Virus record (IMG/VR): IMGVR_UViG_3300031251_000003
Coordinates: 62,001 to 126,000 of that record
DNA from: a virus
Length of the DNA: 64,000 nt
Strand: one strand, 5' to 3'
The translations under genes were made by a program, and so were the position numbers. This document shows positions 8,079 to 56,237 of this stretch, one piece after another; position 1 is the stretch's first letter; each line of letters starts with the position of its first letter. The notes beneath the pieces were generated by a model. The model made no database searches. It saw only the letters and a list, made by a program, of their open reading frames with translations, and was not told where the DNA came from.

Positions 8079-8335
8079 GCCAAATAACCTTTTGATTCAA
8101 GAAAATTACGGAATAGAGTTAGCGCACCTTCCACTTCATCTGGCTCTACATCAGTCCCGAATCCCTCGCCAATTGTATCGTCTCCTAGATAATCTAAGAT
8201 CCCTACATTATGTTCAAAGAAATAAACAAAAGCCTCAAAATCGTCGGCTTCGCAGAGATCATCAAAAGAGATCTTAAGAGGGAAGATCGTGTAGTCCTCA
8301 TCTTCACCATACCACAAGATCAATTTGTTATTCAC
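8075..8335 (-). CDS. Acidic hypothetical protein
   Basis: 86 aa, strongly acidic (ISFDDLCEADDFEAFVYFFE). Overlaps the 3' end of the HNH-RNA ligase gene by 4 bases, so it is translated with it. Not recognised; charge and size are compatible with a DNA mimic or partner protein, but this is speculation. Confidence 0.6.
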   Translation of the reverse strand: MNNKLILWYGEDEDYTIFPLKISFDDLCEADDFEAFVYFFEHNVGILDYLGDDTIGEGFGTDVEPDEVEGALTLFRNFLESKGYLA

Positions 8336-9327
8336 ATCATCATCCTGTTCTTGTCAATAGAACCTACCCGCCAGTGTGTGCGATTTGTTACATGATCGGC
8401 ACGGACATACTTGGCGACTGACTTCTGGAAGTCAGATAGAATAAAGGATCCAGACTTGCGAACAACGTAACCCTCACGGTCATCATCCTGCCAGGTCTGG
8501 AAGAACTCATCTAGATCTCCGAATCGAGTATGGGCAATTACTGGAACAGGAGTGATCCCAAGGATATCAAAGTTCTCTAGCGTTTCATCCCAACTCAGGC
8601 ATACGTTATCCTGCCAGATTCCAAATCCATAGAAGTATGATTTTAGATTATCATACTTGATCGAATGAGTCGCGGCCATATTCTCACCCACGATTCGCAT
8701 CCCTGTTGGAATCTGATAGGAAATGCTATTAGCCCAGAAGTTCTTGACCCATGTTCTAGACCAGTGATAACCACCTTCAAGAGATCGGGCATGGATATGA
8801 TCCGCGTACATGGTTGTATTCTCACCGTCAAGTTTCTCGGTAACAACTACGATTTCTTCAGGATCGAACGGAGCATCGGGGAGAACCATATCATCCTTGG
8901 AACGTCCAAGACTCCAAGGAAGATGCGGAGTACGAGGATACTTGACGTATTGGTGAAACTTACCCAGATAGGGCGCTATGATCTTCTGCACCGATTCATC
9001 ATAGAAGAGCGGGCCTCGCATACGATGACCATCAGGGAGGATGATATTCCCCCACTTATCGTATTCATGGTCGTCTTCAAGAGTATCGGGCAGAGTCACC
9101 TTATGGATACCGGCGAGCTTACGTAACTCGGTAGCCGATAGCTCAGTACTCTCAGCCTGAAGATGATGAACAGAACAAAGACTTACGCCATTGTCCAAAT
9201 GATACCCACCATCGGGCCAGAGCCGACGTTCAATCAGATGATGAGCATCGACGGCAGGAGCAAAGCACTTCACGCAGAGGAAGTTATCTCGCTCGAAAAC
9301 TGCTTCTCTGAACTCATCCCGTGTCAT
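8332..9327 (-). CDS. HNH nuclease-RNA ligase fusion protein
   Basis: 331 aa from ATG 9327, 8 bases after the -10 box (an ATG at 9333 would lie upstream of the expected RNA start). Residues about 1-55 hold an HNH-like zinc fold (CVKCFAPAVDAHHLIERRLW, then CSVHHL). From about residue 150 the protein has nucleotidyltransferase ligase motifs: EKLDGEN with the adenylated lysine, a DDREGYVVR motif IV and AKYVRA motif V. This matches RNA ligases used in tRNA break repair. A single chain joining HNH and RNA ligase domains is unusual. May work with the kinase at 42176-42622. Confidence 0.8.
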   Translation of the reverse strand: MTRDEFREAVFERDNFLCVKCFAPAVDAHHLIERRLWPDGGYHLDNGVSLCSVHHLQAESTELSATELRKLAGIHKVTLPDTLEDDHEYDKWGNIILPDGHRMRGPLFYDESVQKIIAPYLGKFHQYVKYPRTPHLPWSLGRSKDDMVLPDAPFDPEEIVVVTEKLDGENTTMYADHIHARSLEGGYHWSRTWVKNFWANSISYQIPTGMRIVGENMAATHSIKYDNLKSYFYGFGIWQDNVCLSWDETLENFDILGITPVPVIAHTRFGDLDEFFQTWQDDDREGYVVRKSGSFILSDFQKSVAKYVRADHVTNRTHWRVGSIDKNRMMM

Positions 9328-9335
9328 AACCATCC

Positions 9336-9364
9336 ATTATAACACATCAAGAGTGATGTGTAAA
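9336..9364 (-). promoter_or_regulatory. Promoter with operator-like dyad
   Basis: Minus strand TTTACA (9364-9359), 17 bp, TATAAT (9341-9336). The spacer carries a perfect 8-bp inverted repeat ACACATCA-N4-TGATGTGT, a likely repressor site. Confidence 0.75.
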
Positions 9365-44275: not shown

Positions 44276-44347
44276 GTCCCTATAGCTGAGTGGATTTAGC
44301 GGCGGTCTTCTAAACCGCATACGAGGGTTCGAATCCTTCTAGGGATA
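44276..44347 (+). tRNA. tRNA-Arg(TCT)
   Basis: 72 nt, 7-bp acceptor GTCCCTA/TAGGGAT, loop CTTCTAA, normal T arm. First tRNA of the island. No encoded CCA. Confidence 0.85.
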
Positions 44348-44393
44348 TAGAATAAGGTGGTTCGACTCCATGAAAGTCCGGCGAAAATTCTTC

Positions 44394-44422
44394 TTGACAG
44401 CAAGATCGTCAAGTGGTATCAT
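44394..44422 (+). promoter_or_regulatory. Internal promoter in tRNA array
   Basis: TTGACA (44394-44399), 17 bp, TGG-TATCAT (44417-44422). Would drive the structured spacer 44430-44700. Confidence 0.6.
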
Positions 44423-44703
44423 GTAGTTAGCAAGAAAGGGTTCCTCCGGTCGAAAGACTATGAGCCTTGTAGGTGTCGGGTGACCAGCCTGCTTGGTGAT
44501 TGGATGCAAAACCGGGAAGTGTCGATCCAGACTCTAATATCCTCCGCGAGAGGGTGGCGAGGAAGGGGAGCTTCGTAGGGGAGTAGAGAGAATCCTTCCG
44601 TATTTTGGAGAATAGACTGTATTGACGTGGGCGCACGGAACGACGACCATTCGTGGTATGCTAACCCTAGCCCCGTCAATAGAGTCTAGGCTCTATTTTA
44701 TGC
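44423..44703 (+). ncRNA. Structured spacer RNA with terminator-like end
   Basis: 281 bases without a credible protein. TATTGACG (44619-44626) pairs with CGTCAATA (44673-44680); inside, ACCA-TTCG-TGGT is a UUCG tetraloop hairpin. ATAGAG/CTCTAT followed by TTTTATG near 44679-44702 looks like a terminator. May be a small RNA expressed from the promoter at 44394. Confidence 0.4.
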
Positions 44704-44771
44704 TGTCCATCGTCTAATAGGAAGGACTCCGGCCTCTGCCGGGAACGGGAGTTCGATTCTCTCTGGGCCTA
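44704..44771 (+). tRNA. Degenerate tRNA-Glu-like gene
   Basis: Normal T arm (GGGAG-TTCGATT-CTCTC) and D arm of tRNA-Glu type, but the anticodon arm closes as CCGGC-CTCT-GCCGG with only 4 loop bases. The acceptor pairs over 5 bp only. Probably not a standard tRNA. Confidence 0.45.
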
Positions 44772-44776
44772 AGCAG

Positions 44777-44863
44777 AACTAAGATTGAGGATCCCGGAAA
44801 CGTCTTTTAAAACTGCTCCATCGCTAACATCGTTGGGGTGAGCGAAAGCTGGGGGAGTCTTAG
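44777..44863 (+). ncRNA. Structured spacer element E1
   Basis: ACTAAGA/TCTTAGT closes a domain holding CCGGAAACGTCT (from 44794) and the GNRA hairpin AGCGAAAGCT (44841-44850). The same pair of motifs recurs at 45562-45609 and 50268-50338. Lies immediately upstream of tRNA-Ala. Function unknown. Confidence 0.45.
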
Positions 44864-44878
44864 TGATGAGCATAACTT

Positions 44879-44950
44879 GGGGGATCAGTGCTAATGGGGA
44901 AACGTTGCGCTTGCACCGCAAAGAAAAGAGTTCGACTCTCTTATCCTCCA
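44879..44950 (+). tRNA. tRNA-Ala(TGC), copy 1
   Basis: 72 nt, acceptor GGGGGAT/ATCCTCC, anticodon loop CTTGCAC, T stem AAGAG/CTCTT. D stem is weak. Confidence 0.8.
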
Positions 44951-45048
44951 CTGCAAGGAAGAAGAGTAGGTTGAGGGACGACGAATCCCAAAATTACCCG
45001 AATCGATGAATCCTTTGAGGGTGTACGGGTCGTGCCGTTACCCAATAC

Positions 45049-45120
45049 GGGCGGTTAGTGCTAGTGGGAACACGCCGGTTTTGCATACCGGAGTCAGGAG
45101 TTCGACTCTCCTACTGTCCA
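45049..45120 (+). tRNA. tRNA-Ala(TGC), copy 2
   Basis: 72 nt, acceptor GGGCGGT/ACTGTCC, loop TTTGCAT. Same anticodon as the preceding tRNA but a different body. Confidence 0.85.
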
Positions 45121-45286
45121 TATGAAAGCTGATGCGGGATATAAGATGGTGGTAAGAAGGGGTACCGCACCAAATGAGTAGCCACCTTAAGCTTTCAGAA
45201 TTGCCGATGCCATTAGATCAGGTGGCTTAAGCAACAGCGGAACCTGCTAAAGTGGTTCGCGGGCAACCGGCGACAGGTTGCAACAT

Positions 45287-45358
45287 GGGCGAGTAGTTCA
45301 GCGGGAGAATAGCTGCTTTACACGCAGAAGATCGTAGGTTCGATCCCTACCTTGCCCA
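45287..45358 (+). tRNA. tRNA-Val(TAC)
   Basis: 72 nt, acceptor GGGCGAG/CTTGCCC, loop TTTACAC, T arm GTAGG/CCTAC. Confidence 0.85.
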
Positions 45359-45375
45359 CTACATATTAGATTTGA

Positions 45376-45432
45376 ATTAGCTGGCGAACCCCTTGACCGG
45401 GGTTGTGATGGGTTCGATTCCCAGGTGAGCGT
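45376..45432 (+). pseudogene. 5'-truncated tRNA-like fragment
   Basis: Anticodon arm AACCC-CTTGACC-GGGTT (TGA) and T arm ATGGG-TTCGATT-CCCAG are intact, and a 3' strand GTGAGCG follows. No matching 5' acceptor strand is found on either side, and the D arm is shortened. Confidence 0.45.
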
Positions 45433-45469
45433 GGTTGCCATGCGAGAGCCGTCAGTGAAGTTGAGTCAT

Positions 45470-45546
45470 TCGGGATAGATCTCACGGTTACACTATTATT
45501 CTTAAATAATGGTAGTGTGTTGGTTCGAGTCCAACGGTCTAGCCCC
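45470..45546 (+). tRNA. tRNA-like structure lacking a D arm
   Basis: 5' GGGATAGATC pairs with 3' GGTCTAGCCC (9 of 10 bp), directly stacked on T arm GTTGG-TTCGAGT-CCAAC. The rest is one long hairpin ACACTA...TAGTGT with inner ATTAT-TCTTAA-ATAAT. No D stem and no 7-base anticodon loop. Confidence 0.45.
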
Positions 45547-45919
45547 TATGTACCGCTGGAAGCCGGAAACGTCTCCGATGATACTTTAATCTAGGATATA
45601 GCGAAAGCTGGCTGAGGTATTAGGGCGTCTTTGAATGACTTTATCTTAGACCGGAAGCGAATATGTACGGAGTCAAGCGTGACATATGGCTAACTCTAGT
45701 TGTCTCTAGAACTTGACAGAAGGAGACAACGTGGTCTTATACGGCGGTCGAGTCCCATTAAGTTGGGATTCCCGCCACCAATTTGAAACACCCGCTCCGG
45801 GGTAGGAGGCGTGAACTAGCGTAACTAGTTCGGAGGCTACTTGATCCTAATCGTAGCAGGGTTCGCCCTAAACAGCGTAATCAAGCGTGGTTAGCTCTAA
45901 CGGGTTAATCACGCTCCAT
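45547..45919 (+). ncRNA. Structured spacer region including element E2
   Basis: 373 bases without a gene. Holds CCGGAAACGTCT (45563-45574) and AGCGAAAGCT (45600-45609), hairpins ATATGT/ACATAT, GTTGTCTC/GAGACAAC and GGCGG...CCGCC, and a GCGTG/CACGC hairpin just before tRNA-Leu. No open frame worth calling. Confidence 0.45.
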
Positions 45920-46002
45920 ACCCCGCTGGTGAAATTAGGTAAACACGCAGGTCTTAGAAATCTGTGCCGCGAGGCTTACGAGTTCGATTCTCGTGTGGGG
46001 TA
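45920..46002 (+). tRNA. tRNA-Leu(TAG)
   Basis: 83 nt with a long variable arm, acceptor ACCCCGC/GTGGGGT, anticodon arm CAGGT-CTTAGAA-ATCTG. Confidence 0.85.
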
Positions 46003-46219
46003 CTTGGGGTGAGGTAGTCGTTGTCCGGGATAGCTTCCTAAGGAATAGGCTAGCGCTGGCTGATTTGCGTAAATCTGCACACCCTAAAACTTGAGTAAGG
46101 GCGAAGTCTGCTACATGCAGCAGATAGGTTAGCTTGTGCCGTGGTGTAAGGAGCCTGGGGTCATAGAATCCCGACAGACCCTCTGTATTTCTTCCATTAC
46201 CGTGATGGTAATGTGTAGG
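46003..46219 (+). other. Structured spacer
   Basis: 217 bases before the virion-type genes. Hairpin TCTGCT/AGCAGA and a possible decayed tRNA near 46137-46190. No intact tRNA or gene. Confidence 0.3.
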
Positions 46220-46456
46220 ATGTCTGGATACGAAAGAGAACAACAAAAAGAAACTCAGTACACCGATACGGCGGATTTCCCCCGTTACTCTGACTATGCT
46301 GGTTTTAGTTCTTATTCTTATCCTACCTATCCTGCTCAGAGTCGAACGTACGTCGTTCAAACTAGTAATTGGGATCAGACACAAGACTACACCGCTTCTG
46401 GTCTAGCTGCTACTCAAGCAACCTGGACAAGAACTGAACTGCATAACACTAATTAG
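46220..46456 (+). CDS. Tyr/Thr/Ser-rich small protein
   Basis: 78 aa (MSGYEREQQKETQYTDTADF...), rich in Tyr, Ser, Thr and Gln. In-frame ATGs 6 and 12 bases upstream are alternatives. Ends 8 bases before the next gene, so likely one transcript. Could be a short fibre or scaffold piece; not recognised. Confidence 0.55.
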   Translation: MSGYEREQQKETQYTDTADFPRYSDYAGFSSYSYPTYPAQSRTYVVQTSNWDQTQDYTASGLAATQATWTRTELHNTN

Positions 46457-46464
46457 AGGTTAAC

Positions 46465-47076
46465 ATGGCTAAGAGAAAGTTTGACGATAAGGCTACGTGG
46501 CGCACCGATACTTGGGGTATCGATATGACCCAGCCTGCTCGTGCCGAGCGCGTATTTGACCCTAACGATACCGTTACCGATGATCCCACTAAGGGTGGAA
46601 TCGCTGGTTCTGGTGATAATACCAAGGTCACTCATGCTGCTGGTGTTATGTACACAGGATTGAATGATAATCCGGCTGTCGCTGTAGCTCGTGCATACGA
46701 CGATTTCCAGAATCTTACTCCTGCTGTAACTGCGACTTTGACAACATCTTTAACGGGCGCGAACAATGACGTGACTTTCAGTGCTCTTCGTTCCGGTGCA
46801 TCAGGAAACGCAATATCTGTAACCTATGTCGATCCAGGTGGTGCTACTGCTACTCTTGGGGTAACAGTCTCCGGTACCGATATCACGGTCAACCTAGGTC
46901 GAGCAGCATCAGCTATTAACACCACAGGTACGTTGCTCATCGCAGCAGTACAGGCAGTTCCCGCAGCAGCGGCATTGGTCAATGTGGCCAACGCAGCAGG
47001 TAATGATGGAACTGGTCTAGTAACTGCTTTGACTAAGACGAACCTTGCTGGTGGTTTGGAAGCTTTCTACTCTTAA
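46465..47076 (+). CDS. Virion-type protein inside the tRNA array
   Basis: 203 aa. Residues about 85-200 (TFSALRSGASGNAISVTYVD; ITVNLGRAASAINTTGTLLI; GLVTALTKTNLAGG) are a domain common in phage capsid and tail proteins, related to that in 2031-2612. N-terminal 80 residues are polar. A structural gene isolated among tRNAs; perhaps a late decoration protein. Confidence 0.65.
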   Translation: MAKRKFDDKATWRTDTWGIDMTQPARAERVFDPNDTVTDDPTKGGIAGSGDNTKVTHAAGVMYTGLNDNPAVAVARAYDDFQNLTPAVTATLTTSLTGANNDVTFSALRSGASGNAISVTYVDPGGATATLGVTVSGTDITVNLGRAASAINTTGTLLIAAVQAVPAAAALVNVANAAGNDGTGLVTALTKTNLAGGLEAFYS

Positions 47077-47079
47077 CGC

Positions 47080-47108
47080 TTGACAGCCAGTACCCTGTGT
47101 GATATAAT
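47080..47108 (+). promoter_or_regulatory. Promoter with symmetric operator
   Basis: TTGACA (47080-47085), 17 bp, TGA-TATAAT (47103-47108). CCTGTGT and ACACAGG flank the -10 box as a perfect inverted repeat. Confidence 0.85.
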
Positions 47109-47142
47109 ACACAGGTAAGGGAAAACGACAGAAAGGATTCCC

Positions 47143-47499
47143 ATGGCACTTTCAGCAGCAGAGCGCGAGACAGTGATTGTCATCTCGGATGCAGACGACT
47201 TCTGGACTATCCATACTTGTCAGCGCCGGATGGTGACCCAGCTTCTCAAGAACCCGGTCGCCAAGATCCTTGAGAACACCCTCTTCGAGGGTACTCGGTT
47301 CCTCGTTGCTGAGGTTCCTGCGAATGGTATCACTGTTCGCAAGTCGAACGGTCGCAAGGCCAAGTCTTCGCAGCCGCGTAAGGCGACTCTCCGGACAATG
47401 CCGGGTGAGAAGTGCGGCGGCACCAAGTCTGATGGAAGTAAGTGCGGTGCAATCGCAGTGAGTGGTACGGGGTTCTGCCGCCATCATCAGAGCAAGTGA
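47143..47499 (+). CDS. Small DNA-binding-like protein with zinc finger
   Basis: 118 aa from ATG with GAAAGGA upstream. Helical N-terminal half (CQRRMVTQLLKNPVAKILEN), basic linker, then CGGTKSDGSKCGAIAVSGTG plus FCRHH, a CxnC...CxxHH zinc site. May regulate the local promoter, which carries an inverted repeat; inferred. Confidence 0.7.
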   Translation: MALSAAERETVIVISDADDFWTIHTCQRRMVTQLLKNPVAKILENTLFEGTRFLVAEVPANGITVRKSNGRKAKSSQPRKATLRTMPGEKCGGTKSDGSKCGAIAVSGTGFCRHHQSK

Positions 47500-47548
47500 A
47501 GTGCAGTTGAAGTGAAGTAGTAGTTGAAATTGTAGTTAGTCTTCTTGG

Positions 47549-47631
47549 GAGGGTCAGGAGTCGGTTGTGTCCTTCGATCTAAGGAGGTATACAAATTACG
47601 ACTAAGGTAGTAAGAGGGACTCCTGACCCTC
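47549..47631 (+). repeat. 14-bp perfect inverted repeat
   Basis: GAGGGTCAGGAGTC (47549-47562) and its complement at 47618-47631 enclose 55 bases that include CCTT/AAGG and an AAGGAGG sequence with no good start codon behind it. Lies just upstream of tRNA-Lys. Likely a long RNA hairpin for processing. Confidence 0.6.
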
Positions 47632-47645
47632 ACAGGGGACTTTAC

Positions 47646-47719
47646 GGGTGTGTAGCTAAGCGGTTCAAGGCAGGGGACTCTTAATCCCAAGATCACAGGT
47701 TCGAATCCTGTCACACTCA
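47646..47719 (+). tRNA. tRNA-Lys(CTT)
   Basis: 74 nt, acceptor GGGTGTG/CACACTC, loop CTCTTAA. Confidence 0.85.
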
Positions 47720-47729
47720 TCTAAGCACG

Positions 47730-48011
47730 GTGGATAGGAACTATCCGCAGGAGCGATACGAGGATACAAGACCGATCAGGGGCCACTGTGAGGTCTTCTC
47801 TACCTCTGGCAGGGTCGCGGTGGGTACTAACTCATCTAGTGTATATGCCGGTCTTAGCCCGAATGCAGATGTTTCAGCGTATACATCTAGTAGGGCTTTA
47901 CTTTGTAACACCCCTCTCAAGTACACGGAGGAAGGATACGAACGGTACGCAGCCAAAAGGGTCTGCCATATTGAGAACCGAGTAACAATGCTCAATACTT
48001 ACCTGATTTAA
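47730..48011 (+). CDS. Hypothetical protein, GTG start
   Basis: 93 aa (MDRNYPQERYEDTRPIRGHC...). GTG start without a good ribosome site, so the start is uncertain. The frame ends inside an intrinsic terminator, which supports a real gene. No family recognised. Confidence 0.45.
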   Translation: MDRNYPQERYEDTRPIRGHCEVFSTSGRVAVGTNSSSVYAGLSPNADVSAYTSSRALLCNTPLKYTEEGYERYAAKRVCHIENRVTMLNTYLI

Positions 48012-48022
48012 TCAGGTATTTT
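48001..48022 (+). terminator. Intrinsic terminator
   Basis: ACCTGAT-TTA-ATCAGGT stem (48001-48017) followed by ATTTTA. Ends the gene at 47730-48011. Confidence 0.7.
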
Positions 48023-48061
48023 ACCGTCATCCGTCTGGTCGTACCGGGATGACGTTAGAAA

Positions 48062-48147
48062 CTCCAAGTGGTGGAATTAGGTATACACGTCAGGTTGAGA
48101 GCCTGATGGCCATCGCGGTCTTGCAGGTTCAAATCCTGTCTTGGAGA
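48062..48147 (+). tRNA. tRNA-Leu(GAG)
   Basis: 86 nt, acceptor CTCCAAG/CTTGGAG, anticodon arm TCAGG-TTGAGAG-CCTGA, long variable arm. Preceded by a CGTCATCC/GGATGACG hairpin. Confidence 0.85.
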
Positions 48148-48169
48148 TCTCTTACAGGAGGTAAGAAAT

Positions 48170-48298
48170 ATGAATCCAATCTTTTGGCTTCTCTTGATTC
48201 TCTTGATTGTCATCCTTTTGGGTGGAGCAGTATTCAGCCATCTAATCTGGGTATTGATCATTGTAGTTGTCATCCTTTTCTTCCTCTTCGGAAGGTAA
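48170..48298 (+). CDS. 42-aa two-helix membrane protein (DUF3309-like)
   Basis: MNPIFWLLLILLIVILLGGA...FLFGR behind AGGAGG. Two hydrophobic helices split by a short turn; similar in size and pattern to DUF3309 membrane peptides. Function unknown. Confidence 0.7.
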   Translation: MNPIFWLLLILLIVILLGGAVFSHLIWVLIIVVVILFFLFGR

Positions 48299-48346
48299 GT
48301 CATGGCCGTTCCCTATTCTTATGCGGTCTGGGGTAACGGCCACCAT

Positions 48347-48419
48347 GGTTCTCTAGCTCCAACGGTAGAGCGGCTGTTTGAAGCACAGCGCGTTGGCGGT
48401 TCGAATCCGTCGGGAACCA
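48347..48419 (+). tRNA. tRNA-Phe(GAA)
   Basis: 73 nt, acceptor GGTTCTC/GGGAACC, anticodon arm GCTGT-TTGAAGC-ACAGC. A GGCCGTT/AACGGCC hairpin lies directly upstream. Confidence 0.85.
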
Positions 48420-48591
48420 CTGTAGTCGAAGATCCAAGAGCCTCGCTCCACTAAAGTTGGCTGTCTTATAATACAGCACCGGAAGAGAAACTCAAGGGGA
48501 GACGAAATTACGGAGACAAATAGATTAAGCTCCGTAAGATTTATGTTCTATCCTGATGCGTGAATGTTGATCACTAACAAAAGGAGAGAAC

Positions 48592-48792
48592 ATGAAGACA
48601 GCAGTAGGTACTGAAGATCTAACAGGCGCAGTAGTGGTTGATGTTGGCTACAATGATGTGACTCTTGAGAAGGATGGAGTCAGGTTTACTCTTGAACTTG
48701 AGTATGAAGCCGACTACAACAGTTTCTGCGAAGGTAGTTGCTCTTGTTGTGGTAGTTCTGGCTCATCGTACTTCCGGGCCTATAAGGAATAA
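48592..48792 (+). CDS. Small Cys-rich hypothetical protein
   Basis: 66 aa behind AAAGGAGAG. Beta-rich N-terminus and CEGSCSCCGSSGSSYF at the C-terminus, a possible metal site. Followed by a GCCGGA/TCCGGC hairpin before tRNA-Glu. Confidence 0.65.
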   Translation: MKTAVGTEDLTGAVVVDVGYNDVTLEKDGVRFTLELEYEADYNSFCEGSCSCCGSSGSSYFRAYKE

Positions 48793-48842
48793 AGAATCGT
48801 CTGTCACGCCGGATCCTGACGTAAAACTTAGTCCGGCCACAT

Positions 48843-48915
48843 GGCTCTATAGACTAGTTGGTTAGGTCGCTACCCTCTCAAGGTAGAAGTCGGAGTTCGA
48901 GTCTCCGTAGAGCTA
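48843..48915 (+). tRNA. tRNA-Glu(CTC)
   Basis: 73 nt, acceptor GGCTCTA/TAGAGCT, anticodon arm CTACC-CTCTCAA-GGTAG. Confidence 0.85.
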
Positions 48916-48918
48916 CTA

Positions 48919-48998
48919 TGATCACGCAGCCACAGGGCAGGGCGCGGCGACCCGACACTTTCTCGGGGAACATGGAGGTTCGAATCCTCTCGGGATCA
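48919..48998 (+). tRNA. tRNA-like gene with non-U33 anticodon loop
   Basis: Acceptor GATCACG/CGGGATC (6 of 7 pairs), T arm GGAGG-TTCGAAT-CCTCT, D stem GCC/GGC. Anticodon arm CCCGA-CACTTTC-TCGGG has A at position 33, and extra bases separate it from the D stem. Probably decayed or specialised. Confidence 0.45.
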
Positions 48999-48999
48999 C

Positions 49000-49230
49000 T
49001 GTGGGATAGAAAGGGCAACAAAGCGATATAACTTGACGCATCAGGGAGAGTTAGTCCCCTACTATCCCCCTATACTTTAAGAACGTGTGTGTGACGCTGT
49101 GACGCAGCAGAGGCACACTTTCGGGCGGGGGCGTCACCCCACGGTACCGGCGCGGTTTGGGACAACCGTTGTAAGACGACCGGAGGCGGCTTAGCGGCTG
49201 CTGAGAGGGTTCTCAAATGTTCTTATACTA
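49000..49230 (+). other. GC-rich structured spacer
   Basis: 231 bases, GGGATAG/CTATCCC and GTGACGC/GCGTCAC hairpins. No gene or canonical tRNA. Confidence 0.35.
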
Positions 49231-49301
49231 TGGCGTATCGTTCAACGGCAGGACGGGTGGCTGTTAACCATCTAATTCAGGTTCGAATCCTGGTATGCCA
49301 G
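49231..49301 (+). tRNA. tRNA-Asn(GTT), copy 1
   Basis: 71 nt, acceptor TGGCGTA/TATGCCA, anticodon arm GGTGG-CTGTTAA-CCATC. Confidence 0.85.
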
Positions 49302-49372
49302 CTTTAAATTCGTAGGGCACTACTCGCTGGTCGGACTAGTTTGCTGGCGAGCAACCCTACGGCGCGTTTCAT

Positions 49373-49443
49373 TCCCCGGTCGTCTAACGGTAGGGCAGAT
49401 GGCTGTTAACCATCGTATGAGGGTTCGATTCCTTCCTGGGGAG
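49373..49443 (+). tRNA. tRNA-Asn(GTT), copy 2
   Basis: 71 nt, acceptor TCCCCGG/CTGGGGA, anticodon arm GATGG-CTGTTAA-CCATC. Confidence 0.85.
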
Positions 49444-49607
49444 CTTCGCAGTACATTGTTCGTCGTCCGGGAGCATCGCGAGGCATAACGGGTAGCTCAG
49501 GGTTAAATTCCCTGATAGGGCGGCTAGCCCTAGACTGAACGTATTGATCCTTACTTGTTAAAGCGGGTTTGGGGAATGTGGCAATGTATTGCGCCGGTTT
49601 TAATCGT

Positions 49608-49662
49608 CGCGGATTAGAGAAAAGGTCATCTCGTGAGTCTCATAAACTTTTCATGAGTTTAC
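49608..49662 (+). pseudogene. 5' two-thirds of a tRNA-Met-like gene
   Basis: CGCGGAT acceptor strand, GAG/CTC D arm and anticodon region GAGTCTCATAAACT match the intact tRNA-Met at 50023, but no T arm follows. The sequence breaks off where the HNH gene begins. Confidence 0.5.
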
Positions 49663-49679
49663 GAACACTAATAGTAGAG

Positions 49680-50048
49680 ATGCCATACAAAGATCCCGAA
49701 AAACAGAAAGAAGCACAGGCTAGATTAAGTGCTGCTTATTATCAAAAGAATAAGAAAAAGATGAAAGTTCGTGCAAAGCAGTATACATACGAACATCGAG
49801 AACGTCTTAAGCAGTTTTTGATAGAGATAAAGTCTGCTCCATGTATGGACTGTGGAAATTCGTTTCCATCATGTGTAATGGACTTTGATCACCGTGAGGG
49901 TGAAGAGAAAAACGGTTGTGTGTCTGTAATGGTGAACCGCGCACTAAGCTTAGATAGAATTAAACAAGAAGTATCTAAGTGCGACCTAGTATGTGCGAAC
50001 TGTCATCGGATTCGAACCTCCACGCGGAAACAAGCCCTGGTGGGCTAG
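49680..50048 (+). CDS. HNH endonuclease, homing-type candidate
   Basis: 122 aa from ATG 49680 (MPYKDPEKQKEAQARLSAAY...). Basic helical N-terminus, CMDCG, DFDHREG and CANCHRIRT form the zinc and HNH site. Its last codons (CGG AAA CAA GCC CTG GTG GGC TAG) lie inside the 5' half of the tRNA-Met at 50023. Upstream lies a partial copy of that tRNA, so it looks like an insertion at a tRNA gene. Confidence 0.75.
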   Translation: MPYKDPEKQKEAQARLSAAYYQKNKKKMKVRAKQYTYEHRERLKQFLIEIKSAPCMDCGNSFPSCVMDFDHREGEEKNGCVSVMVNRALSLDRIKQEVSKCDLVCANCHRIRTSTRKQALVG

Positions 50049-50096
50049 GGAGTCTCATAAACTCTCTCATGGTCAGTTCGATTCTGACTTCCGCTA
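50023..50096 (+). tRNA. tRNA-Met(CAT), overlapping HNH gene
   Basis: 74 nt. Acceptor CGCGGAA/TTCCGCT with a 1-72 mismatch like initiator tRNA, D stem AGCCC/GGGCT, anticodon arm GGAGT-CTCATAA-ACTCT. The 5' 26 bases are also HNH coding sequence. Confidence 0.8.
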
Positions 50097-50494
50097 TTTC
50101 AAAATGCAACTAGGCCGACATAGTTGCGCCATATGGTGAAATGATCGGCATACAATTCTGTCTAACCTAGATAGGAGCGCAAATAATCATGAAGTAAGTT
50201 ATAACCTTTGCTCGTATTTGAAGGTTAAATGATTATTCCGCATATACGTGAGACGAATGCCGCAGAAGCCGGAAACGTCTAGCAGGGTCAAGTCCGCGAT
50301 AATCAGCTTGATGCATTCCCTGTGAATACAGCGAAAGCCGCCGCCGAGGTTGAGTCTGGATTACAGTGTATGTGATTATATGATATGATTTTAAGTTTGA
50401 TTCATCTTGACTGTGGAGCCGAAAGCTGAGAAGCAGATCAAGAAACTAATGTAGATACATCGAGGGGTCGCGCATCTCTAACACGCGAATATTT
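50097..50494 (+). ncRNA. Structured spacer region including element E3
   Basis: 398 bases without a gene. Nested hairpins GCAACTA/TAGTTGC, AATAATCAT/ATGATTATT and TAACCTT/AAGGTTA, then CCGGAAACGTCT (50269-50280) and AGCGAAAGCC (50330-50339), then GGAGC-CGAAA-GCT near 50415. Likely a structured RNA rather than a protein gene. Confidence 0.45.
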
Positions 50495-50584
50495 GGATAG
50501 GTACTCAAGAGGCTTAAGAGGATGGTTTGCTAAACCATTAGAGGATGTCAAAGTCCTGCCAGAGTTCGAATCTCTGTCTATCCG
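50495..50584 (+). tRNA. tRNA-Ser(GCT)
   Basis: 90 nt with a long variable arm, acceptor GGATAGG/TCTATCC, anticodon arm ATGGT-TTGCTAA-ACCAT. Confidence 0.85.
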
Positions 50585-50655
50585 TGTAAGACGATCCGAA
50601 GACGATGGGAACGTACGCGCATATCATGCGTGGTGACAGTCTATTCGAGGATCAG

Positions 50656-50728
50656 TGAATTGTAGCTCAACGGTTAGAGCGTTCCCTTCATATGGGAAAG
50701 GTAGTCGGTTCGACTCCGATCAATTCCA
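50656..50728 (+). tRNA. tRNA-Met or Ile2 (CAT)
   Basis: 73 nt, acceptor TGAATTG/CAATTCC with 1-72 mismatch, anticodon arm TTCCC-TTCATAT-GGGAA. Initiator, elongator or lysidine-modified Ile cannot be told apart by eye. Confidence 0.75.
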
Positions 50729-50816
50729 TTAAAGAGGATGGTAGCCGATAGGTTGGCGTGGGTGTGCTGATTCGGTGAGATGGTTCGTCCTGCCTCATAA
50801 GACCACGCGAGAATTT

Positions 50817-50903
50817 GGATATATGGCTGAGTGGATTAAAGCGCTAGTCTTGAAAACTAGTATGTGTGAAAGCGCATCCGGGGTTCGAATCCCTGTGTAT
50901 CCG
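50817..50903 (+). tRNA. tRNA-Ser(TGA)
   Basis: 87 nt, acceptor GGATATA/TGTATCC, anticodon arm CTAGT-CTTGAAA-ACTAG, long variable arm. Confidence 0.85.
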
Positions 50904-51083
50904 TAGGATGGTTTACGACGTGGTAGTGTACGTTTGGCGCTTAAGTGCGTTCTGGCCGAGAATCAAAGGCATCCATCCTTGGGGTTAGAGACTTAGGATT
51001 CTGAGGCGAGCAACCTGAAATGGTAAGGAACGAATAACCGTTGCTGCGGCCTGTCGTTCAAACTGGATCAAGTCTCTTCTTTT

Positions 51084-51170
51084 GGAAACGTGGCCGAGAG
51101 GATTAAGGCGCAGACCTGGAAAGTCTGTTGGTATTTACGTGCTACGCAGGTTCGAATCCTGTCGTTTCCG
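51084..51170 (+). tRNA. tRNA-Ser(GGA)
   Basis: 87 nt, acceptor GGAAACG/CGTTTCC, anticodon arm CAGAC-CTGGAAA-GTCTG, long variable arm. Confidence 0.85.
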
Positions 51171-51186
51171 CTCATGGGGTGAAAAT

Positions 51187-51310
51187 GGAGAGTCGTCTAG
51201 TTCGATTCTAGACTTGTGGATGGTTCCACGGCGGTTCAATTCCGCGTTATAAACTTGTGGCAGCAAATAGGGTAGCCCCCGCTCAGAGGGTTCAATTCCC
51301 TTACACTCCA
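51187..51310 (+). ncRNA. tRNA-like RNA with three T-arm-like hairpins
   Basis: 124 nt closed by GGAGAGT/ACACTCC (6 of 7 pairs). Holds GTCTAG-TTCGATT-CTAGAC, GCGG-TTCAATT-CCGC and the terminal GAGGG-TTCAATT-CCCTT, plus GTGGA/TCCAC. Each of the three has a T-loop-like TTCRAYT. Not a standard tRNA. Confidence 0.5.
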
Positions 51311-51356
51311 TTTATTTACAATTAGGATTACTAATTACTCTTGTATAATAGATAGA

Positions 51357-51785
51357 ATGATTAATTCTAGAGTTTTAAATGAGAAAATAAAGGCCCAAAA
51401 GGAGATTACGAATCAACGATTCGCTGATTCAGAAAAAGCTGTTGCAGCAGCTTTAGCTGCTCAAGAAAAGGCAACAGCGGCAGCATTTGCGGCTGCAAAG
51501 GAAGCTGTCATCAAGGCAGAAATTTCCCAACAGCGTGTCAATGAAAGTCAGAATGAATTCCGTGGCCAGCTTAAAGATCAAAATGCCGCTACGGAACGTA
51601 ATATGATGCCTCGTGCTGAAACAGAGTTATTGGTTAGAGAAATTCGAAGTAGTATTCAGGATCTTCAGAAGAGCCGAGATACCATCACAGGCAAGTCAAT
51701 GGGGATAGCTAACTTGACTAGCTCTGTCTATGCGTTTATCTTTGCTATTGCAGCTATTGCAGCTATCGCAGGCCACTTTCTCTAA
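51357..51785 (+). CDS. Coiled-coil protein with C-terminal membrane anchor, leaderless
   Basis: 142 aa. Long Ala/Gln/Glu-rich coiled coil (residues 5-110) and a final transmembrane helix (SSVYAFIFAIAAIAAIAGHF). ATG is 7 bases after TATAAT (51344-51349). Might be spanin- or exclusion-like; unproven. Confidence 0.7.
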   Translation: MINSRVLNEKIKAQKEITNQRFADSEKAVAAALAAQEKATAAAFAAAKEAVIKAEISQQRVNESQNEFRGQLKDQNAATERNMMPRAETELLVREIRSSIQDLQKSRDTITGKSMGIANLTSSVYAFIFAIAAIAAIAGHFL

Positions 51786-51804
51786 TATGCTATAATGTGA
51801 TCCC

Positions 51805-51957
51805 ATGAGGATCATTGGTGAACATTTCACTAGGCAGGGTAAGCCTAAGGTTACTTATGCGACCTTCCAGGGCGCTCAGAAGAAAGCACTGAAGCTTCAT
51901 ATGCGGGCTTATCAGTGTGGGTTTTGTGGCAAGTATTATCTAACGCATAAAGTTTAG
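51805..51957 (+). CDS. 50-aa zinc-finger protein, leaderless
   Basis: MRIIGEHFTRQGKPKVTYAT ... AYQCGFCGKYYLTHKV. One CGFC pair with a downstream His. ATG lies 8 bases after TGC-TATAAT (51791-51796). The G of its TAG stop is base 1 of tRNA-Ser(CGA). Confidence 0.65.
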   Translation: MRIIGEHFTRQGKPKVTYATFQGAQKKALKLHMRAYQCGFCGKYYLTHKV

Positions 51958-52039
51958 GAAGATATCCGAACGGTTAGGAAGCGCCCTCGAAAAGCGCCGG
52001 TGTTCATAGCACTTGGGAGTTCGAATCTCCTGTCTTCCG
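51957..52039 (+). tRNA. tRNA-Ser(CGA)
   Basis: 83 nt, acceptor GGAAGAT/GTCTTCC, loop CTCGAAA with one mismatched pair in the anticodon stem, long variable arm. Confidence 0.8.
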
Positions 52040-52254
52040 CTTATCGATAATCCGGGGATAGACCTAGGATTGTGACTGGATTAGGATCGCAACCTGATTA
52101 CGGCAATCTCATGATGGTCAGCTAGGGCCAGCACCTAGAATCGATTTCTAAAAGAACGACTCACGAAAGACTAGTGTAGGAAGGTAAGGGACGCAGGGTT
52201 GGGATGACGATCTCGACGCGCCTATTTCTGTATCTTTCGTGGGAAGGTTTAACA

Positions 52255-52328
52255 CACGCCTTAGCCAATGGATAGGCAGATCGGCTCCAACCCGATCCAA
52301 AGGTGGGTTCGATTCCTACAAGGCGTGC
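52255..52328 (+). tRNA. tRNA-Trp(CCA)
   Basis: 74 nt, acceptor CACGCCT/AGGCGTG, anticodon arm ATCGG-CTCCAAC-CCGAT, T arm GTGGG/CCTAC. One extra base at the acceptor/T-stem junction. Hairpin CACGAAAGA/TCTTTCGTG upstream. Confidence 0.8.
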
Positions 52329-52349
52329 TCAGTCTTATAAGGAGGATGT

Positions 52350-52682
52350 ATGCGAGTTCTATTACTGGTCTTGGTATTCTTGGTAATGGCAACGTCCGCG
52401 TTAGCATCTCCACCCCGCCCTGCGAGGGCTTTCGATACCTTATGGTGTTGGCAATTGAAAGTTCAGTACACGCTCAAGCTGGGATGGCAAGCTAAGCATT
52501 GGAAATGCAACCTAGGTAGTTGGGATCCGTATGCTAAAGAATGGACATATCGGGTCTGGGTTGATGAAGTAAAAGGTAGTCGTGTTTATCATGACTATGT
52601 GATCCTCTTTACAGACTTTGCTACTAAGAATTGGACACGAGTTCCCCATGGATATCCTGAAACAGGTGGTCTAAAGGGTTAA
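52350..52682 (+). CDS. Secreted small protein
   Basis: 110 aa behind ATAAGGAGG. N-terminal signal peptide MRVLLLVLVFLVMATSALA with likely cleavage at ALA-SPP; the mature part is Trp/Tyr-rich with two Cys (CWQLKVQYTLKLGWQAKHWK). Its 3' end is part of a 186-bp tandem duplication. Function unknown. Confidence 0.75.
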   Translation: MRVLLLVLVFLVMATSALASPPRPARAFDTLWCWQLKVQYTLKLGWQAKHWKCNLGSWDPYAKEWTYRVWVDEVKGSRVYHDYVILFTDFATKNWTRVPHGYPETGGLKG

Positions 52683-53022
52683 AGTGTGTACATCTCTTTC
52701 ACTGGATTCCAATGGTGTTCATGATTACAGTGACTGTGGAGCGAGAGCTTAGCACCAAGCGCACTCCTATTACTTGCACGGTTGGCTGATCGGTGTAAGC
52801 GCCACTCTTATAAGGTGGTTTAAGCTAGGTTCGACTGATATCCTGAAACAGGTGGTCTAAAGGGTTAAAGTGTGTACATCTCTTTCACTGGATTCCAATG
52901 GTGTTCATGATTACAGTGACTGTGGAGCGAGAGCTTAGCACCAAGCGCACTCCTATTACTTGCACGGTTGGCTGATCGGTGTAAGCGCCACTCTTATAAG
53001 GTGGTTTAAGCTAGGTTCGACT
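52651..53022. repeat. Perfect 186-bp tandem duplication
   Basis: 52651-52836 is repeated base for base at 52837-53022. The unit runs from the 3' end of the secreted-protein gene to the T loop of tRNA-Ile(TAT). It leaves one truncated and one complete tRNA. Confidence 0.9.
52776..52836 (+). pseudogene. 3'-truncated tRNA-Ile(TAT)
   Basis: Identical to the first 61 bases of the tRNA at 52962 but breaks in the T loop, so it cannot form an acceptor stem. Confidence 0.8.
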
Positions 53023-53035
53023 CCTAGACCGTGTA
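52962..53035 (+). tRNA. tRNA-Ile(TAT)
   Basis: 74 nt, acceptor GCACGGT/ACCGTGT, anticodon arm CCACT-CTTATAA-GGTGG. Reads the rare ATA codon. Confidence 0.85.
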
Positions 53036-53054
53036 CTTGTGCTATAATGTAGTC

Positions 53055-53549
53055 GTGAACGAAGAACGACAACAAGCTTGGAACCATTACTTCCAGACCG
53101 GCGATAGAGAACCAATCATCAAAGCCTACTGGAAGTCGATCAGTTACATTGCTCATGCTCGTTATCCGGCCTACGAAGAAGATATGTTCCAGGTCGGGCT
53201 AATGGGTTTGCTCAAGGCTATCAGTCGTATCGATGTCAATCGAGTCAAGTCTATTGATGCTTGGGTATGGTTGAATGTTCGTGGAGAAATGTTTAACGTA
53301 AAGCTTGCTAAGCCAACTCTTCCGATTGTTATCGAGTCAGAGAGGTTTGCTATCGAGGAAGACAAAGATCCAAAGATCTACATGCAACAGGCATTCGAGG
53401 TTCTAAACGAGCGCGATAGGTATATTCTTGATAGTATTTACTATAAGAATAAGACACGTCAGGCTCTAGGCAAGGAGTTGGGCATTACCGGCATGAGAGT
53501 CGGCCAACTAGAACAAAGAGCATTAAAGCAGTTGAGAGAAGTATTGTAA
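53055..53549 (+). CDS. Sigma70-family RNA polymerase sigma factor
   Basis: 164 aa from GTG 53055, 6 bases after TGC-TATAAT (53043-53048), so leaderless. Region 2-like EEDMFQVGLMGLLKAISRID (residues about 40-80) with DAWVWLNVRGEM, and region 4-like LNERDRYILDSIYYKNKTRQ ... MRVGQLEQRALKQLREVL with a helix-turn-helix. Small sigma factor that may redirect host polymerase to phage promoters. Ends directly at tRNA-Ile(GAT). Confidence 0.8.
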   Translation: MNEERQQAWNHYFQTGDREPIIKAYWKSISYIAHARYPAYEEDMFQVGLMGLLKAISRIDVNRVKSIDAWVWLNVRGEMFNVKLAKPTLPIVIESERFAIEEDKDPKIYMQQAFEVLNERDRYILDSIYYKNKTRQALGKELGITGMRVGQLEQRALKQLREVL

Positions 53550-53622
53550 GCACAGGTACTCAAGCGGTTAAGAGGCCACTCTGATAAGGTGGTATGCGAA
53601 AGTTCGAATCTTTCTCTGTGCA
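53550..53622 (+). tRNA. tRNA-Ile(GAT)
   Basis: 73 nt, acceptor GCACAGG/TCTGTGC, anticodon arm CCACT-CTGATAA-GGTGG. Begins on the base after the sigma factor stop. Confidence 0.85.
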
Positions 53623-53701
53623 TAGGATCGGATTATTGATCCAAAGTAAGGCGACCAATATCGTGGCGCTAGCGAAAATCACAAAAACGACTTTACAGAT
53701 A

Positions 53702-53798
53702 TTTTCATTTGTAGGTTCGAATCCTACTCCCCGCTCTTCACGCGGGGATGGCGAAATTGGCAAACGCGCTGGGCGATCAGCCCGGTTGTGAAATATCA
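53702..53798 (+). tRNA. Candidate circularly permuted tRNA, Leu-like
   Basis: The 3' half (T arm GTAGG-TTCGAAT-CCTAC and TCCCCGC) lies upstream of the 5' half (GCGGGGA, D arm GCGAAATTGGCAAACGC, anticodon arm CTGGG-CGATCAG-CCCGG) with a 7-base linker TCTTCAC. The outer ends pair as GATATTTTCA / TGAAATATC. Anticodon loop lacks U33, so decoding is uncertain. Confidence 0.5.
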
Positions 53799-53927
53799 AT
53801 CAAGCGAAAGTTGTGTTAGCTAGAATAAGGCGCGTGATGCTAGCCTTTTATTTAAGGTTATATGCCTCTTATAGTCTAGTGAGGATCAAAGAAACGTCTC
53901 ATGGTATGGGCTTCCAAACCTATACTA

Positions 53928-54000
53928 CGTGTAGCTCAAATGGGAGAGCCGCCGCCTGAAAAGCGGTGGGTTGGGGGTTCGAGTCCCTCCACGAAAGTAG
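53928..54000 (+). tRNA. tRNA-Phe(GAA)-like with disrupted acceptor
   Basis: D arm GCTC/GAGC, anticodon arm GCCGC-CTGAAAA-GCGGT and T arm GGGGG/CCCTC are fine. The 5' strand CTACGTG can pair with CAC...GTAG only if a GAAA insertion is looped out. Confidence 0.5.
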
Positions 54001-54051
54001 CGAAAGCTTTGGGAGTTAGTCGAGTGAAAAGTGGTTAATTAGCCTTATTCC

Positions 54052-54374
54052 GGGAGCGTCCCGGTTTCGATGTGGAATTACGGTTCTGACTTCAATCCGT
54101 GGAAACATGATGGCCACGTAAAAAACATGTAACGTACTAAATGCAAACGCTAATATGAGCGTCCCGGACTTCATCCCTGATTGGGTAATGGATGAGTCCT
54201 TAGTTGCTGCTTAACTAGGAAACCTAATAAGCAGAGACTCTCAGGAAAGACTGAGTGGCGGAGGGGCGACTGCCCTCCATGCTTGACAAGTACGACCGTG
54301 ATGGGTATAATCTATGATTGTAAGCGTTAGTTCAACGATTACCGCAGACGCGAGTTCGACTCTCGCCGCTTCCA
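54052..54374 (+). ncRNA. ssrA: tmRNA
   Basis: 323 nt. Acceptor GGGAGCG/CGCTTCC, T arm GCGAG-TTCGACT-CTCGC, and a TTTCGAT D-loop motif close the tRNA-like domain. CGTGG/CCACG plus ACATG/CATGT form a first pseudoknot upstream of the tag. Resume codon GCA at 54143 starts a 23-codon tag (ANANMSVPDF ... DESLVAA) ending at TAA 54212. GCAAACG at the resume site matches E. coli tmRNA. Rescues stalled ribosomes and marks the product for proteolysis. Confidence 0.88.
54283..54311 (+). promoter_or_regulatory. Promoter-like site inside tmRNA
   Basis: TTGACA (54283-54288), 17 bp, TATAAT (54306-54311). Would make an RNA holding only the 3' tRNA-like end and the downstream gene at 54410. Confidence 0.6.
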
Positions 54375-54409
54375 TATGTACTATATTTCACTCCCTCCAA
54401 AGGAAGTTA

Positions 54410-54604
54410 ATGCACGATAGATCAGACTACCATATCCACAAGGATGAGCAAGGGAAACTACACAGGTGTTACCACAACTGCCGAAATATCTTACCCAACT
54501 GGCAGTTCTGGGTTGGTATGACGATGGGATTCCCTCTCGAACATCTGATTTGGCAACATCTTTGGCCCTTCTATTTAGTTAGTAATCTTTTGGGCCTTTC
54601 GTGA
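54410..54604 (+). CDS. Small hypothetical protein
   Basis: 64 aa behind AAAGGAAG. MHDRSDYHIHKDEQGKLHRC then a hydrophobic C-terminal helix (WPFYLVSNLLGLS) that may touch the membrane. Stop TGA overlaps tRNA-Cys. Confidence 0.65.
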   Translation: MHDRSDYHIHKDEQGKLHRCYHNCRNILPNWQFWVGMTMGFPLEHLIWQHLWPFYLVSNLLGLS

Positions 54605-54672
54605 CCTTGGCCGAGTGGTTTAGGTATGGCTCTGCAAAAGCTATTACATCAGTTCGAATCTGATAGGTCACT
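54601..54672 (+). tRNA. tRNA-Cys(GCA)
   Basis: 72 nt, acceptor GTGACCT/AGGTCAC, loop CTGCAAA. Starts inside the preceding gene's last codons. Confidence 0.85.
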
Positions 54673-54784
54673 TGAAGTACAATGTTTCATACAGGATCTA
54701 CCTCTGGCTCATAGCTAGGCGGTTTAGATTTGAATGGTTGGAAAGGCTGGTTCGTAAACCTATAAACCAGAGATGGAGAAGGTA

Positions 54785-54985
54785 ATGGCACAGTTGCAGA
54801 AGACATTCATTGCACGATTCTACGATAGCTCACGACATCAATTTGCTACCAACAAGGTAGTCGCGGCAAACTTCGTGATGGCAGGAGAAGTTGCCCATGA
54901 GTGGGCAGAAGATCACTACCATGGACGTGCAACGAAGATCAAACTAGAATCCTCCAAAGGTGGAGAAGTTGTGTGTTCCGACTAA
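54785..54985 (+). CDS. Small hypothetical protein upstream of S12
   Basis: 66 aa from ATG 54785 (GGAGAAGG upstream). MAQLQKTFIARFYDSSRHQF ... HEWAEDHYHGRATKIKLESS. Alpha/beta; 12 bases before the S12 gene, so probably co-translated. Not recognised as a ribosomal protein. Confidence 0.65.
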   Translation: MAQLQKTFIARFYDSSRHQFATNKVVAANFVMAGEVAHEWAEDHYHGRATKIKLESSKGGEVVCSD

Positions 54986-54997
54986 AAGGAAGGGTGT

Positions 54998-55399
54998 ATG
55001 GCGACAATTAATCAGCTTGTAAGAAAGGGCCGAACGGCCAAGAGGAAGAAGGATAAGTCCCGTCATTTAAAGGGTAACCCTCAGGTTGCCGGTACTGTCT
55101 TGCGCGTCATGGTTCTCAACCCTTGTAAGCCGAATTCTGCCGAACGTCATTCGTGCAGGGTTAGACTCTCCAATGGCGGTGAGGTAACCTGTTACGTCCC
55201 TGGTCGTGGTATGAATATCCAGGAGCACAGCAGAGTCCTTGTTCGCGGCGGAATTGCTCCTGATCTCCGTGGAGTCAAGTACAAGGTTGTCCGTGGTAAT
55301 CGTGACTGTGCCGGGGTCAGTGATGAGATGGGTGGAAAGAAGAATTCCACACCAGTTCCTCGTAAGAATTCTCGTTCACTCTACGGAGTGAAGAAGTAG
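54998..55399 (+). CDS. rpsL: Ribosomal protein S12 homologue (uS12)
   Basis: 133 aa behind AAGGAAGG. Clear S12: [11 protein letters not shown] at the start, [45 protein letters not shown] and a SLYGVKK end. The lysines whose mutation gives streptomycin resistance in bacteria (K43 and K88, Mtb numbering) are Cys and Pro here, and the neighbouring Pro91 is Arg; Asp89 is kept. A ~15-residue insert precedes the C-terminal YGVKK. Expected to enter the 30S decoding centre if assembled. Confidence 0.92.
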
Positions 55400-55409
55400 T
55401 GTTACATCA

Positions 55410-55507
55410 CCTTATCGCTCGTTCCGATGCCTGTTGACGCAGGCTTAGGGAGCAAAACTGAAGCGTCAACTTCGTCTCAATATCGGCACAAGCCGAAGCG
55501 ATAAGGA
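55410..55507 (+). ncRNA. Structured element between S12 and tRNA-Leu
   Basis: Outer 10-bp stem CCTTATCGCT/AGCGATAAGG and inner 8-bp stem GTTGACGC/GCGTCAAC, with CCGAT/ATCGG between. May be an autoregulatory or processing element. Confidence 0.55.
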
Positions 55508-55511
55508 TCTT

Positions 55512-55595
55512 GCCCGCCTGGTGGAATGGTATACACGGTTGGCTTAAACCCAACTGCCTATAACGGGCTTGCGAGTTCGAATCTCGCGGTGGGTA
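55512..55595 (+). tRNA. tRNA-Leu(TAA)
   Basis: 84 nt, acceptor GCCCGCC/GGTGGGT, anticodon arm GTTGG-CTTAAAC-CCAAC, long variable arm. Confidence 0.85.
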
Positions 55596-55617
55596 CTTGG
55601 TAAGGATGGTAGTTCAT

Positions 55618-55701
55618 ACCGGTGTGCTGGAATTAGGTATACAGGGGCGTCTCAAAAACGTCTGCTCAAAAGGCATGAGAGTTCGATTCTCTCCATCGGT
55701 A
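55618..55701 (+). tRNA. tRNA-Leu(CAA)
   Basis: 84 nt, acceptor ACCGGTG/CATCGGT, anticodon arm GGCGT-CTCAAAA-ACGTC. Confidence 0.85.
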
Positions 55702-55779
55702 CTGTCGGTATCACGCTGGCGCTCTAAGGAGTCGAGGCCGAATATCGGGATGCATCTCGTGAGAGAAGGGGATCTTGAC

Positions 55780-55820
55780 GCCCGGAGTTTTGTCTTTATG
55801 TCTGAAACTCCTTTATGTTC
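55780..55820 (+). terminator. Terminator-like hairpin
   Basis: GGAGTTT/AAACTCC stem followed by TTTATGTTC. May end the S12-Leu segment. Confidence 0.5.
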
Positions 55821-56000
55821 AATAAACTAACTCATAACGGTACAGCACCTGAGTCAGTGGATGGAGTCGTCTAGTTCTCTAACAGTCAAATTGGCGTCCT
55901 TTCTAGATAAGGTAATCCTCTAAGATTGAGATTGACTAGCGGCGAACTTGAGGTACGGAAGTACCTTAGCCGACGACATTTATGATAAACTGTAGTATTA

Positions 56001-56073
56001 CCCTCCATAGCTTCAACGGTAAAGCACGGGCCTTTTAAGCCATGAGTTCTGGGTTCGAATCCTAGTGGGGGGA
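56001..56073 (+). tRNA. tRNA-Lys(TTT)
   Basis: 73 nt, acceptor CCCTCCA/TGGGGGG, loop CTTTTAA; the anticodon stem has only 3 strong pairs. Confidence 0.75.
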
Positions 56074-56223: not shown

Positions 56224-56237
56224 TCTAGAAAGAAGAC

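Follow-up and report, generated by a model that had tools for sequence, protein, structure and literature searches.

RNA ligases with an N-terminal HNH domain are known from phages: a 2021 survey of jumbo phages by Iyer et al. (PMC7824862) described such domains on some Rnl2-family ligases, citing earlier work. The gene studied here lies in a window of 64,000 nt (positions 62,001 to 126,000) of the 158 kb virus record IMGVR_UViG_3300031251_000003 and encodes the same chain of N-terminal HNH and C-terminal ligase as these jumbo-phage proteins (PHROG 24030). The record is below jumbo size and its tail protein is actinophage-like, being closest to those of Eggerthella, Gordonia, Rhodococcus and Mycobacterium phages, but the architecture is otherwise the same. 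A megablast search returned no close phage isolate at the DNA level. The initial annotation had not recognised the fusion as a standard arrangement; our domain survey corrects this view, as the fusion had been published by 2021, constitutes a PHROG family and is widespread, and thus is an already-known architecture. A biochemical study of an HNH-ligase fusion was not found in the searchable literature.

Nearly full-length relatives with the same two domains include Salicola SCTP-2 gp101 (53% identity), Caulobacter CcrBL9 gp226 (50%) and Acinetobacter ME3 gp200 (43%). Gene 233 of halovirus HGTV-1, annotated as HNH protein / RNA ligase, shares the chain at 27% identity over nearly its full length but, unlike the window fusion, lacks most of the connector. 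Homologous ligases, mostly at 41-55% identity (PHROG 34045/24030), are also found in bacterial operons with HD-Pnk or in kinase fusions (gammaproteobacteria, Streptomyces, others); these have neither HNH nor connector and are accompanied by an end-healing kinase instead. HD-Pnk is a characterised end-healing enzyme that is often encoded with a putative ligase.

T4 Rnl2 (gp24.1) and Naegleria NgrRnl (Rnl5 type) have the same nucleotidyltransferase fold and motifs as the window ligase, at about 12-17% identity in fold alignments. Members of the T4 Rnl2 family carry a C-terminal domain of ~100 residues after motif V. This domain is missing in the window fusion, where only 25 residues follow the motif V lysine K308, and the N-terminal OB-fold of Rnl5 enzymes (DraRnl / NgrRnl) is likewise missing, with the HNH at the N-terminus instead. 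Alignment to T4 Rnl2 with hhalign was not significant, and phrog_548 matched the window protein weakly (0.095) and a ligase-only relative at 1e-4. With motifs I, Ia, III, IIIa, IV and V all present, the protein belongs to the PF09414 RNA ligase superfamily.

Gene structure and putative promoter

The fusion is encoded by a single reading frame of 333 codons with zero internal stops (Table 1). The alternative considered in the initial annotation, two separate genes joined by a missed stop, was ruled out, as the frame is open in the window gene and in 108 homologous ORFs. An in-frame ATG is located at residue 3 (position 9327). Since the promoter-like site upstream ends at 9336, three bases ahead of the upstream ATG, the ATG at 9327 is probably the likelier start, on a leaderless transcript; transcription would begin near 9328 and the protein would then comprise 331 aa. 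The palindrome between the -35 and -10 elements occurs only once in the window according to a pattern search and is a possible operator or repressor site. Within 6179-17207 (minus strand), each of the eight top-ranking matches to a sigma-70-type promoter is on this strand and has a 17-base spacer and a TG before the -10 element, and several are situated just upstream of short genes; the total count of such matches in this region was no higher than in shuffles.

Table 1. Features of the fusion gene, its upstream region and its genomic surroundings (window coordinates).
Feature	Position	Strand	Evidence
HNH-RNA ligase fusion gene	8332..9333	-	one open frame; PHROG 24030 full length, E 3e-116
RNA ligase nucleotidyltransferase domain, residues 131-325	8359..8943	-	PF09414; Foldseek matches to RNA ligases
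Ligase motif I KLDGEN, residues 167-172, adenylylation lysine K167	8818..8835	-	K167 invariant in 100/100
Conserved connector, residues 70-128	8950..9126	-	profile search
HNH endonuclease module, residues 5-66	9136..9321	-	PHROG HNH families, conservation, beta-beta-alpha elements in model
Promoter-like site TTTACA-17-TATAAT, TG before -10	9336..9364	-	near-consensus sigma-70-type, consensus scan
Perfect palindrome 8+8, ACACATCA-N4-TGATGTGT, between -35 and -10 of ligase promoter	9342..9361	.	pattern search
Polynucleotide-kinase-like P-loop kinase, 169 aa	42176..42685	-	PF13671 1.5e-16; PHROG polynucleotide kinase 2e-21
46 tRNA genes, all 20 amino acids, and tmRNA (54052-54374)	44276..62854	+	ARAGORN, Rfam

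Domain organisation and predicted structure

The Pfam RNA_ligase model PF09414 matched residues 161-310 (E 6e-25, 88.7 bits compared to a cut-off of 27). PHROG 24030, named RNA ligase, covers residues 2-330 of 333, so that an existing family already represents the chain in its fused form. More than 10 PHROG HNH families matched residues 3-94, mostly inside 5-70 (best 7e-10); none of the Pfam HNH models reached E 0.1 on the fusion protein, and a PF01844 search of the genome missed the gene. An HNH match was also found within a single open frame of 4720 aa in the same record, outside the window (G000:C1, near 27650).

The HNH and zinc residues are C20, C23, H31-H32, N48, C53 and H56-H57, of which H32, N48 and H57 form the H-N-H triad, whereas C20xxC23 and C53xxH56 likely constitute the zinc site; an N-terminal region devoid of metal-binding residues, which the initial annotation had considered, was thus not found. 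The ligase motifs comprise K167xDG (I), R183 (Ia), E217 (III), F237 (IIIa), E287G (IV) and K308 (V). The combination of a zinc HNH and a complete ligase in one chain was borne out by PF09414, the PHROG HNH families, PHROG 24030 and motifs I to V. It lies far outside what chance would give, since 100 unique fused homologues have retained these residues with hardly an exception and the structure model is confident.

Structure prediction with AlphaFold from a 95-sequence alignment yielded a single confident chain (pLDDT 95.1, pTM 0.89), in which residues 70-160 are mostly coil. The best Foldseek matches of this model were almost all RNA ligases, with NgrRnl closest, along with archaeal Rnl3-type enzymes, T4 Rnl2, T4 Rnl1 and fungal tRNA ligase, and DNA ligases ranked lower. 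A PDB sequence search with the single fusion protein gave no match, and a PDB profile search gave weak matches only, including the IscB HNH at about 0.01.

Distribution and conservation of the fusion

Full-length homologues were detected in Salicola SCTP-2, Caulobacter CcrBL9 and relatives, Acinetobacter ME3 and halovirus HGTV-1, among others, and on more than 75 viral contigs. The fusion thus has a wide distribution that takes in large phages, a haloarchaeal virus and several bacterial phyla. A scan of viral contigs confirmed 304 relatives, of which the best 80 were analysed, and a scan of bacterial and archaeal genomes gave 533, of which again the best 80 were used. Among the loci examined (best 80 per scan), HNH, connector and ligase were present together in 108 ORFs, and 75 ORFs had the ligase without HNH and connector. 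Only two ORFs had ligase and connector without HNH, one being cut by a contig end and the other deriving from a TAG-split gene. In profile searches, the connector was common to all 108 fused ORFs and missing from complete ligase-only ORFs. When HNH and connector alone were used for scanning, the new loci always included the ligase, in one frame in 78 cases and split by an in-frame TAG in one. Among the best 80 matches per scan, the ligase thus occurs without HNH and connector, but no case of the reverse, HNH and connector lacking the ligase, was seen. These module counts are computational and not corrected for phylogeny.

Conservation was determined from 100 unique fused sequences with a median pairwise identity of 52%. 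H32 was kept in 99 of the 99 sequences covering it, N48 and H57 each in 99/100, and C53 and K167 each in 100/100; the scan patterns themselves fix K167, D169 and G170, and in the first two alignment scans also N48, C53 and H57. Mean column conservation was higher in the HNH (0.61) than in the ligase (0.52). In this set of 100 divergent fusions, the catalytic and zinc residues of the HNH thus vary about as little as the ligase lysine. HNH and ligase distances were correlated (Mantel r 0.41, with 0/500 permutations as high). In a quick ligase tree, fused and ligase-only forms were interleaved, with 12 changes, at least 5 of them forced by starred branches; the window gene was weakly placed.

Several exceptional loci were noticed. 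On a Pseudomonas serbica megaplasmid (L117, 4977-5999), the HNH is degenerate (H31T, H57R) and the ligase intact, so that nature provides a test here of whether cutting by the HNH is required; at a second locus (L080), the HNH catalytic positions are likewise changed and the ligase is intact. Phage LR745206 (L013:3995-4949) encodes a ligase followed by an HNH protein in separate overlapping ORFs, in reverse order and without connector. Two in-frame TAGs interrupt an otherwise intact HNH-ligase gene (L023:4157-4159 and L023:4574-4576; same gene as L233), which suggests that this phage reads TAG as an amino acid. In IMGVR_UViG_3300022916_000010 (L188:628-3124), the HNH-ligase gene appears broken directly after ligase motif I, with a free-standing VSR-like endonuclease gene between the halves; by its sequence motifs, this looks like a naturally split intein.

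Association with end-healing kinases

In bacterial and archaeal genomes, a Pnk-type kinase accompanies 48 of 61 ligase-only genes, either directly adjacent (29) or in the same ORF (19), whereas it was nearby in 0/19 fused genes in bacterial genomes and a kinase was nearby in 8/88 viral fused loci, these counts being computational and not corrected for phylogeny. The adjacent kinases checked by Pfam have HD and kinase domains (HD-Pnk), and in Streptomyces-type ligase-only ORFs the kinase domain is C-terminal to the ligase. Neighbour clusters at high-GC Streptomyces loci contained shadow frames and were left out of the interpretation. By analogy, the partnership of ligase-only relatives with end-healing kinases appears well supported. 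Among the viral fused loci, three (L081, L087, L100) have a kinase-phosphatase Pnkp directly after the fusion and one (L012) an HD-Pnk. In four bacterial genomes that carry the fusion (Devosia, Burkholderiaceae PBA, Variovorax, Achromobacter), searches found neither HD-Pnk nor HAD-Pnkp. The fused gene stands alone between apparent flagellar genes in Devosia and between other chromosomal genes in PBA (neighbours named by eye from their translations). Absence of a kinase nearby does not equal absence from the genome, since an AAA_33 kinase was encoded elsewhere in the large-phage genomes in 14 of 18 records. Fusion to an HNH and pairing with HD-Pnk resemble two different routes to ligatable ends.

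Genomic context and candidate roles

The tRNA array and the tmRNA (Table 1) are candidate substrates of the fusion. A weak additional tRNA at 44880-44950 (+) lies at the Rfam gathering threshold and was not listed by ARAGORN. The polynucleotide-kinase-like protein is a possible end-healing partner, and a CCA-enzyme-like protein is encoded in the same genome. The window also contains a gene for a DUF34/NIF3 family protein (3359-4216, minus strand; PF01784 3.7e-51).

The initial annotation had proposed tRNA repair, intron removal or defence. RNA or tRNA repair emerged as the best supported of these because of the 46 tRNAs and the tmRNA, the Pnk-like and CCA-enzyme-like genes and the relatives in end-healing operons; the other two gained no support. 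An intron or splicing role was rejected, as ARAGORN and Rfam analyses of the window reported neither an Rfam intron family nor an interrupted tRNA. That the fusion is a known anti-phage defence protein was likewise rejected, given that PADLOC models did not match it at E 0.01.

Functional interpretation

Our preferred reading, to which we assign a probability of about 0.5, is a phage ligase of the PF09414 superfamily that repairs RNA (probably tRNA) and has its own active N-terminal HNH nuclease. Both domains are present, intact and co-inherited, and a repair ligase that also cuts would be the simplest reading using both intact sites. Sealing by the ligase domain is well supported at the level of sequence: as a member of its family, it would adenylylate K167 and seal 3'-OH/5'-phosphate breaks via lysine-AMP. 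The conserved residues predict that the HNH domain works as a nuclease. HNH nucleases leave 3'-OH/5'-phosphate ends, which are exactly the ends that can be ligated, so that the chain might cut damaged strands, be it for trimming, opening or disposal, and then reseal without a separate end-healing step. Given the RNA-ligase fold matches and the tRNA-rich genome, we infer that the substrate is RNA, most likely tRNA or another structured RNA that host anticodon nucleases have damaged. Coupling of the cut to the seal is likewise inferred.

Several points count against repair combined with cutting. The Pnk-free genomes would also fit a ligase that meets clean nicks only, the ligase-only forms indicate that the HNH is dispensable for sealing, the HNH-degenerate L117 has kept its ligase, and RlaP was not found in the virus's own record. 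HNH enzymes usually cut DNA, which counts against an RNA substrate. We propose only tentatively that cutting and sealing take place in a single chain, the HNH cutting damaged or foreign RNA and its own ligase rejoining it, and that an end-healing kinase is dispensable for fused forms; HNH fusion and HD-Pnk as apparent alternative suppliers of ligatable ends would then be explained.

Phage HNH domains mostly act on DNA, and the PHROG HNH matches of the fusion are phage endonucleases. These observations are in line with the proposal of Iyer et al. 2021 (PMC7824862) of two independent weapons, in which the DNA of the host or of a superinfecting phage is cut by the HNH, damaged RNA is mended by the ligase and no substrate is shared. 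Such a division of tasks seems unlikely to us: one would expect to meet an independent DNase in free-standing form, but HNH and connector were never seen without the ligase among the best matches; moreover, the chain models as one rigid unit, and bacteria with lone chromosomal copies would have to tolerate a resident DNase.

It is also doubtful that the enzyme repairs breaks in DNA or RNA-DNA hybrids, with the HNH incising round a lesion or ribonucleotide and the ligase sealing the duplex like the nick-sealing Rnl5-type enzymes. NgrRnl, the closest fold, seals nicked duplexes, and an ATP-dependent DNA ligase gene is located close by (9588-10763). Furthermore, a passage of PMC9146567 citing Schmier and Shuman 2018 (its ref 50) ties Deinococcus HD-Pnk, the type of partner found with ligase-only relatives, to radiation resistance, and on this account the substrate could be DNA. 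However, the nearby gene means that the phage already has a DNA ligase, and the tRNA-rich genome together with the RNA-ligase fold matches points to RNA. That the HNH module is a nucleic-acid-binding or structural domain from a homing endonuclease that has lost cutting would fit L117, L080 and the many relatives whose ligase works without HNH, but is improbable, since the catalytic residues are kept in at least 98/100 sequences and no other part of the chain is as well conserved as the HNH columns.

Beyond the known architecture, the present analysis adds three computational findings that lack a correction for phylogeny: the HNH is strictly conserved, its module depends on the ligase, and end-healing kinases show a complementary pattern of association. 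Should cutting and sealing prove to be coupled, the fusion would be an unusual way of repairing RNA and would make a useful enzyme tool. The pattern of ligases either fused to an HNH or encoded alongside HD-Pnk provides a specific, testable hypothesis for the purpose of the HNH domain.
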